NCBI GenBank assembly: GCA_005240095.1
Contig: SBAX01000346.1
Coordinates: 1 to 33,234, forward strand
Direction: 5' to 3'
Length of the DNA: 33,234 bases
DNA from: Phycisphaera mikurensis
GTDB taxonomy: Bacteria > Planctomycetota > Phycisphaerae > UBA1845
Each line of letters begins with the position of its first letter. Position 1 is the stretch's first letter. This document shows positions 6,482-19,333 of the stretch, one piece after another. A model generated the notes under the pieces. The model was not told the DNA's origin, searched no databases, and saw only the letters and a program-made list of their open reading frames with translations. Position numbers and translations under genes: made by a program.

Positions 6482-8569
<2,088 letters not shown>

Positions 8570-8617
8570 CGGCCCTTCGGGCCTCACTGCTCGGTTTGAG
8601 TAGTTACGCGTGATCTT

Positions 8618-17620: not shown

Positions 17621-18070
17621 CTACGGAACGCCGCTGCGCGGGAAGCCCATGTCCCTCCACTTCCGCGTCTCTACAAACTGATCAAGGTGGCCTATGTTGT
17701 CCGTGGCAACGATAGCACCGGCGAACTTGGCCTGCGCCGCCAAGATCGCGTCCCCATCCAATGCGTGCTTATCAGCTGTCGGCTTGCCATGCTGCCTCGC
17801 TTGAGCCCACAATCTCGCCGCCTCGAGCATCATCGAGGTTTCGATGGGCAGATACGTAAGCTCGCTCTTGATTTGATCGAGACGTTGAAGGCTCTCATGT
17901 AGCCCCTCCAGAATCAGGTTCCGGCGAAGCTCGTAGTCGGCAATCTCGGGCACGATAACCTCACAATCGGCCCTGAGCATGGCAATGAACCACTGCGCCG
18001 TCGCCTTCGCTGCCCTCGGGTGCGCCACTTCCCCAAGCGGCCCAGTATCGAGGAGGATGCGTTCACTCAC
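17621..18070 (-). CDS. PIN-domain nuclease (VapC-like)
   Basis: MSERILLDTGPLGEVAHP ... VPEIADYELRRNLI ... DGDAILAAQAKFAGAIVATDNIGHL: spaced acidic residues of a PIN fold. GTG start. Confidence 0.8.
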   Translation of the reverse strand: MSERILLDTGPLGEVAHPRAAKATAQWFIAMLRADCEVIVPEIADYELRRNLILEGLHESLQRLDQIKSELTYLPIETSMMLEAARLWAQARQHGKPTADKHALDGDAILAAQAKFAGAIVATDNIGHLDQFVETRKWRDMGFPRSGVP

Positions 18071-18488
18071 TGAATCGCTTCCTAGCGGAGGTGCGTGACT
18101 CTTCGATTCTTGCCTTCAGCGTTGGCCACACTCTCTCGTCGTAGCCCGAATCGTCGGCAAGCCAAGACTCGATGAGAGCGATCAGCCTTCTACGTCTTTC
18201 CTGCCGCGACGAAGCCTTCTGCTCTGCCCGTGGTCCGCCTGGCCGAGGTTCAAGAGGCTGGAAAAACCCCCTCGTGACGGTTGCCAGCCTTGGGCCCCCG
18301 TTGATGAGTTCAATGTAACCGCGCAGCAACGAAGCCGGCGAGGCGTCGACCGCCGGCGCGGATCGGCGTCGAGCCGGCCCGTGCCCAACCAAGAAGTAAA
18401 AAGCCTGCGGCGTGGTCGTCGAGCCCTGCTCGCCTTGGCTGAACTCATCTGAGAAGCTCTGCGTTGTCGTGGTCCGTTGGTCGATCAC
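18063..18488 (-). CDS. Unknown 141-aa protein, candidate antitoxin or adaptor
   Basis: GTG start overlapping the upstream TGA by 4 nt, 8-nt overlap with the PIN gene; RRRRLIALIESWLADDSGYDERVWPTLKARIEESRTSARKRF tail. Confidence 0.6.
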   Translation of the reverse strand: MIDQRTTTTQSFSDEFSQGEQGSTTTPQAFYFLVGHGPARRRSAPAVDASPASLLRGYIELINGGPRLATVTRGFFQPLEPRPGGPRAEQKASSRQERRRRLIALIESWLADDSGYDERVWPTLKARIEESRTSARKRFSE

Positions 18489-19333
18489 ACGTTCTTCCTT
18501 TTCCAGAACTCCTTCTGAATCCGCTCATGCGTCAGGTCGGCAAAACCCCGCACGATCCACTCTCGACCTTGCTGAAACCACTCGCGAATCGCATCATCGT
18601 CCAAACTGCGCGGAACACCCCGAGCCGTTAATTCGCACAGTAGAACCGGTTTCATGTCCCTTCGCCTCAGCGCGTGTCGCACTGACACATGAAGGCGACC
18701 GGAAAGCCCGGGCATCAGGAAGCTGAGCTTCCAGGTCGCAGATTCCGGCGTCGGAAGGAATGATCTTTGCGTCCGCCATTCGACATCCGGAAAAACGTGG
18801 CCGATGGTTGCGACGCCGTCCCAGCCCTCCCCTTGGACGATGTGGTTGATATACGTCACCTCAAGCTGGTTGATCTGGGGCGTTCCGACCTTATCGTCCC
18901 GGCAGAATCTGCGGAATCTCTCCCACGCCGACCAGAACCTCTTGAAGACCTCTGGAAAGTGCGGATAAACATCCGTTTCTTGTTGCTTGCGCCAATTGTG
19001 GAGGAAGCGATCACTCTGCACTTGAAGCAACCAACACGGCGTTTGATGAACGAAAAACATTCTCGGCAACGGAGGAGCACTCGATAGCTCAATGCGTGGT
19101 TCCTCGGTCGCCAGCTCGCCGAAGCGTTCGATTATCTGGGCGAGCGGCGCTTGTTGTTCACATGCAGGGTAGTCCTCCTTGACACGCTGCCACAGCAAAC
19201 CAAACGCTGTTGCCAGGAAGCCTTCCAGGGGCGCGAACTGCAAGCCGCAAACGACCTCGATCACCGGCGGGACCTCGTAATCCGGTAGCCGATTCAGCGA
19301 TGTTACAGCCATTGGGAACCGTCGAACCTCCAT
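18485..19333 (-). CDS. TIGR04255-like family protein
   Basis: YEVPPVIEVVCGLQFAPLEGFLATAFGLLWQRVKEDYPACEQQAPL ... LEVTYINHIVQGEGW ... hallmark architecture as I recall it; start at 19333 or 19312. Confidence 0.7.
   Translation of the reverse strand: MEVRRFPMAVTSLNRLPDYEVPPVIEVVCGLQFAPLEGFLATAFGLLWQRVKEDYPACEQQAPLAQIIERFGELATEEPRIELSSAPPLPRMFFVHQTPCWLLQVQSDRFLHNWRKQQETDVYPHFPEVFKRFWSAWERFRRFCRDDKVGTPQINQLEVTYINHIVQGEGWDGVATIGHVFPDVEWRTQRSFLPTPESATWKLSFLMPGLSGRLHVSVRHALRRRDMKPVLLCELTARGVPRSLDDDAIREWFQQGREWIVRGFADLTHERIQKEFWKRKNV

Follow-up and report, generated by a model that had tools for sequence, protein, structure and literature searches.

TIGR04255 proteins as probable shared control components of bacterial toxin-antitoxin cassettes

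Introduction

A 33,234-nucleotide stretch of DNA assigned to Phycisphaera mikurensis (contig SBAX01000346.1, positions 1-33,234, termed the window below) carries three overlapping genes on its minus strand, the first of which belongs to the NCBIfam family TIGR04255 (sporadTIGR04255) and the last of which encodes a PIN-domain protein. This arrangement raises the question of what a TIGR04255 protein contributes to a cassette that ends in a putative toxin. The first gene product passes the curated cut-off of an NCBIfam model that is itself without a function, and neither TIGR04255 nor DUF7689, a family found at related loci, was mentioned in the literature searched, which excluded most subscription journals and preprints. 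A sequence-only reading of the window had suggested a three-part toxin or defence module with the middle protein as candidate antitoxin or adaptor and TIGR04255 as a third, sensor component. Here, we assess that suggestion using profile searches, predicted structures and the genomic neighbourhoods of related genes.

Organization of the cassette

Gene 1 (18485-19333, minus strand; ORF call and NCBIfam HMM) encodes a TIGR04255-family protein of 282 aa that matches the model over positions 2-251 of 252 (E 2e-13, 50.7 bits, cut-off 30), with an alternative in-frame ATG at 19312 that may be the true start and would give 275 aa. Its stop codon and the GTG start of gene 2 (18063-18488, minus strand), which encodes a 141-aa protein, share a 4-nt GTGA overlap (18485-18488), whilst gene 2 in turn overlaps gene 3 by 8 nt (GTGAGTGA, 18063-18070). 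Gene 3 (17621-18070, minus strand) also begins with GTG and encodes a PIN protein of 149 aa. The three genes thus have the coordinates, strand and both overlaps that the sequence-only reading had given. HMM searches with all three products, a check named in that reading, placed TIGR04255 and PIN above their cut-offs and left the 141-aa protein without a family match in Pfam, NCBIfam or PADLOC.

The G+C content of the cassette is 0.57-0.61 (third position 0.66-0.72) compared with 0.65-0.66 (0.78-0.85) in four neighbouring genes, a pattern as for acquired DNA, and the neighbours in the window appear housekeeping-like. Elsewhere in the window, two matches to Acido-Lenti-1 RNA (RF01687) above the gathering score lie at 2631-2675 and 8540-8584 on the plus strand. 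The same genome holds at least one more TIGR04255 locus, on another contig (L071, G000:C309), where an 'HPAYQQI' gene and then a DUF7689 gene come after it, and a further partial TIGR04255 match at the end of a third (L072, G000:C415).

A predicted VapBC/FitAB-type pair

The product of gene 3 matched the Pfam PIN family (PF01850; 30 bits, cut-off 23.6) and its nearest relative of solved structure is FitB (2h1c, E 6e-5). In an alignment of 93 rows, 97-99% retain D8, E47, D105, D107, T123, N125 and H128, and the first four of these residues are the acidic positions whose loss had been named in the sequence-only reading as a reason to doubt it. The protein is predicted to be a VapC/FitB-like PIN ribonuclease toxin.

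Its relatives were collected with a query alignment made from the window PIN and two of its relatives. When approximately 85,000 species genomes were scanned in this way, 297 related loci were obtained, the best 80 of which were kept. Most of these 80 have an upstream gene that ends a few bases from the PIN start and encodes a protein with a characteristic C-terminal tail. The tail of the gene 2 product itself (about residues 103-141, ...ALIESWLADDSGYDERVWPTLKARIEESRTSARKRFSE; 18066-18182, minus strand), which we propose as the PIN-neutralizing segment, recurs directly upstream of the PIN gene in a large majority of the 80. Two related types of tail are found among the PIN partners, 'LLxxWLADESGYDExxWPxLKxxIEENRxSxRKxF' and 'LLxSWxEEGDEQEQxETxEYLxxALDEDRLSxRPLFP', and the N-termini that precede them differ amongst the PIN relatives; one antitoxin from a locus lacking TIGR04255 has a weak FitA-like RHH N-terminus (Pfam, below the curated cut-off). 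With such a tail encoded upstream of nearly all PIN relatives, the 141-aa protein can be assigned as the cognate antitoxin of the gene 3 PIN, as had been surmised. Because of the shared upstream tails, the FitB structural match and the conserved PIN residues, genes 2 and 3 are classed as a VapBC/FitAB-type toxin and antitoxin. Like VapBC and FitAB they combine a FitB-related PIN toxin with an overlapping upstream antitoxin gene whose product has a putative toxin-binding C-terminal tail. They differ from them in that the window antitoxin is without a recognizable RHH or AbrB domain (Pfam and NCBIfam scans gave no N-terminal DNA-binding domain), carries an N-terminal extension and is preceded by a third gene.

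Comparison with three orthologous cassettes from other Phycisphaerae (L084, L085 and L086; PIN identity 63-69%) separated the two parts of the antitoxin. Between the window and these loci, the N-terminal half is 26-51% identical and the tail 54-70%, and the extension (residues 1-95; 18204-18488, minus strand) is fast-evolving and is proposed as the region bound by TIGR04255. The pN/pS of gene 2 is 0.48-0.67 against the three, its higher value being due to drift of the N-terminal half, whereas values against L085 and L086 are 0.25-0.28 for TIGR04255 and 0.27-0.32 for PIN, both genes being under strong purifying selection. A direct search of the genome contigs with the 141-aa protein gave no match because only the tail is conserved. 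A spurious 141-aa ORF was considered and ruled out, given that relatives conserve both the tail and the overlaps.

Recurrence of the three genes

One reading of these data is that genes 2 and 3 alone make up an ordinary VapBC/FitAB system of two genes, with an independent TIGR04255 gene upstream by coincidence, and the PIN scan might seem to favour it, as most PIN relatives in other phyla (72 of the best 80 of 297) form a pair without TIGR04255. The remaining eight have TIGR04255 upstream on the same strand and include loci from Desulfobacterales, Planctomycetaceae, Anaerolinea and proteobacterium MAGs; several loci come from metagenome bins and some of these organism names may be wrong. Closer to the window the association is tighter. 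In a phylum sample of 294 genomes, all three close PIN homologues (E<1e-29; the window, G203 and G081) lie directly behind TIGR04255 and a short gene, the other matches being one truncated at a contig end and two of far lower strength. When 397 genomes of the class were surveyed for TIGR04255, the trio was found in a further five (G627, G368, G502, G375 and G398), the first three of which are the loci L084, L085 and L086 described above. These three share the gene order, the GTGA overlap and the PIN overlap, which in L084 and L085 has the same size as the 8 nt of the window. In L084 (2730-3562) the TIGR04255 gene of the otherwise orthologous cassette is split across two frames, either by assembly error or by decay. 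A second PIN subfamily ('PINb') behaves similarly, six of its eight strong matches in the phylum sample lying behind TIGR04255, and in the clearest exception (G187) the antitoxin has 77 aa compared with 105-137 aa.

Gene order, strand and start/stop overlap are constant across genomes and phyla, which is more than chance. Together with the 3/3 close relatives, and with the many toxin classes and unrelated upstream neighbours of TIGR04255 described below, this constancy makes the two-gene reading very improbable. The sequence-only reading had named rare co-occurrence of the three families as a further reason to doubt it, which the recurrence of the trio in this phylum and others contradicts, and its view of TIGR04255 as a third component holds as far as being a component of the cassette is concerned.

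The presence of TIGR04255 may also be accompanied by a longer antitoxin. Antitoxins with the same tail have 100-156 aa in cassettes with TIGR04255 versus 61-72 aa in those without (L087, L088, L089, L130 and L138), a comparison of about 11 with 5 phylogenetically non-independent proteins that is mainly confined to one tail type. Many other antitoxins of the same PIN family from loci lacking TIGR04255, mostly cyanobacterial, are also long and have a different N-terminus.

TIGR04255 genes precede many different pairs

We classified 202 distinct TIGR04255 loci by their downstream genes, with classes seeded from the loci themselves. The most frequent class comprises a WDSYG protein followed by a GNK protein (72 loci), ahead of a 'QGD' family (20), DUF7689 (15) and the window-type PIN (12). 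Five other PIN groups account for 22 loci, bringing the six PIN subfamilies to 34, and smaller classes contain Fic (7), HEPN (5), a metallo-beta-lactamase fold (5), HTH (5), HicA (4), an M48 peptidase (3, perhaps not a true member given the gap before it), a small family without a name (3) and PemK (PemK/MazF; 1). A further 28 loci were either unclassified (21) or at a contig edge (7). Two Pfam scans that are independent of the class seeding agree with this picture. For the third genes, 78 once the two largest classes were set aside, the matches were PIN (28), DUF7689 (14), Fic (7), Lactamase_B (4), HicA (2), PemK (1) and HEPN (1). In the upstream control on the same locus set no family occurred in more than 2 of 78 and PIN was not among the 25 families listed, those present being mostly metabolic or DNA-related. 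The tight packing is general as well: with starts chosen mechanically, gene 2 starts at a 4-nt overlap in 106 of 187 TIGR04255 loci and overlaps in most of the others, and for gene 3 an overlap with the preceding gene occurs in 89 of 176 loci and a start within 30 nt of its end in another 75.

A quick maximum-likelihood tree built from 181 TIGR04255 proteins needs at least 32 changes of partner label, and the starred set of 18 that contains the window protein has HEPN, WDS/GNK and several PIN classes as partners. TIGR04255 stays whilst the downstream pair is swapped, making the window trio one variant of a larger family, a point that the sequence-only reading had missed, and TIGR04255 probably serves different bacterial toxin-antitoxin systems as a common control component. 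A comparable case is that of Panacea (PanA) and NetFlax, where one protein family is combined with many unrelated toxins (PMC10440598; PMC8832971). Panacea is part of the antitoxin in two-gene systems, whereas TIGR04255 adds a third protein, distinct from the antitoxin, to pairs in which every toxin retains an antitoxin of its own.

Outside the phylum of the window, the range of TIGR04255 is known from the PIN scan and two plasmids. On a Mycobacterium paragordonae plasmid, TIGR04255 is followed by two overlapping genes that by eye are WDS and GNK. On Thermus brockianus pTB1 (L324) it lies near a CopG/VapC pair, a DNA methylase and cas6, with an unassigned hypothetical gene as the next one downstream. 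For Fic, the search gave distant matches only and was excluded as a control; two Fic loci lacking TIGR04255 (L304:359-976 and L305:308-931) begin with a different gene of about 206 aa, possibly another kind of third component, followed by a 183-aa gene and Fic.

The WDSYG and GNK pair, present behind about 70 TIGR04255 genes (L031:549-974 and relatives; L323:3273-4240), looks like an unnamed toxin-antitoxin family. GNK is the commonest third gene, with S57 and H109 invariant and R21 near-invariant, and its predicted structure (pLDDT 92.5) has KptA/Tpt1 as best PDB matches, the best E value being only 0.009. Lower-ranked matches are an Xre-RES toxin, ParT and DarT. Like KptA/Tpt1, these have ADP-ribosyltransferase folds, which provides a lead that GNK may be ADP-ribosyltransferase-like.

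Predicted fold of the TIGR04255 protein

For the window TIGR04255 protein, a model from a 109-row alignment (pLDDT 94.1, pTM 0.90) predicts with confidence a TBP-like fold made of two repeats, each having the order beta-alpha-beta(3-4)-alpha. Foldseek ranks TATA-binding proteins first amongst the PDB matches (E 6e-4, probability 0.99, low TM-scores), ahead of Bet v 1-like folds. Homology to SecB was also considered and is unsupported, SecB being absent from the top 50 Foldseek PDB matches of the model and from the Pfam matches of 109 TIGR04255 members.

Autoregulators such as omega and PaaR occur in other three-gene toxin-antitoxin loci, and a TBP-like saddle that binds the operator and represses the operon, substituting for the RHH domain of the antitoxin, would place TIGR04255 amongst them. 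The TATA-binding proteins as best fold matches fit this idea, as does a window antitoxin without a recognizable DNA-binding domain set beside the one TIGR04255-less antitoxin with a weak FitA-like RHH domain. However, most TIGR04255 proteins are acidic (median pI 5.9, charge -4; window protein pI 7.7), which speaks against DNA binding, TIGR04255 is retained in the HTH class, where the gene 2 product brings a DNA-binding domain of its own, and the same-tail antitoxins of 61-72 aa that occur without TIGR04255 offer scant room for such a domain. We therefore consider autoregulation an improbable role for TIGR04255.

A proposed mechanism and its likeness to TAC systems

A closer functional parallel is provided by the toxin-antitoxin-chaperone (TAC) systems, in which a SecB-like chaperone binds an extension of the antitoxin and makes the antitoxin chaperone-dependent, the same kind of chaperone is common to HigBA, HicAB and MqsRA pairs and the antitoxin extensions have no similarity to one another (PMC5105189). 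In CmdTAC, the toxin becomes free when the chaperone is diverted by a phage capsid protein (PMC11618068). TIGR04255 cassettes resemble TAC (HigBA1-SecB-TA; CmdTAC) in having a third gene common to unrelated pairs, here over a wider range of toxins (PIN, Fic, HicA, PemK, HEPN and ART-like), and in antitoxins with a variable extension. The extension is N-terminal here and C-terminal in TAC, TIGR04255 is encoded first in the cassette, unlike the TAC chaperone, and the SecB fold of the TAC component is replaced by the predicted TBP-like two-repeat fold. Because TIGR04255 is not of the SecB fold or family, the cassette falls outside TAC and the likeness would be functional only.

On this analogy, we consider it reasonably likely that the three genes form a tripartite type II toxin-antitoxin system acting like TAC, with TIGR04255 stabilizing the antitoxin via its N-terminal extension. 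The C-terminal tail of the antitoxin would wrap around the VapC/FitB-like PIN ribonuclease and block it, leaving about 95 N-terminal residues as a variable and probably disordered extension. By comparison with TAC and CmdTAC, we infer that TIGR04255 most likely binds this extension and so preserves the stability or activity of the antitoxin, and that loss or titration of TIGR04255 (through stress or a phage product, for instance) would cause the antitoxin to fail and free the PIN RNase. The N-termini of the gene 2 products have no common motif that could be found by eye, so a common TIGR04255 site on the antitoxins is putative. Such a role would not be specific to PIN, as TIGR04255 also heads cassettes whose third genes are ADP-ribosyltransferase-like, Fic, HicA, PemK/MazF, HEPN and others.

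As to biological role, an anti-phage abortive-infection module in which sensing of a phage product by TIGR04255, in the manner of CmdC in CmdTAC, releases the PIN RNase is compatible with the favoured TAC-like mechanism. This works-like argument from CmdTAC (PMC11618068) is joined by the sporadic distribution of the cassette, its G+C below that of neighbouring genes and the high turnover of toxin partners. Against it, neither the three cassette proteins nor 109 TIGR04255 members matched a PADLOC model at E<=0.001, no relatives of the TIGR04255 protein were found in phages or viral contigs and the window neighbours are housekeeping-like, such that we regard an anti-phage role as possible but on the unlikely side. 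A broader proposal is held tentatively, as one just short of evenly balanced: that, as a non-SecB hub, TIGR04255 governs six or more unrelated toxin classes via their antitoxins and serves as the trigger sensor of a large, undescribed and possibly anti-phage tripartite family.

Implications

With these results TIGR04255, so far a family without a function, gains a testable role as the common third component of many toxin-antitoxin pairs, in which it would do the job of the SecB-like chaperones of TAC with an unrelated fold. The pairs behind it include apparently unnamed toxin-antitoxin families, such as WDSYG with the ART-like GNK, and, if the sensing idea is true, TIGR04255 would offer a route to the triggers of these toxin-antitoxin pairs.
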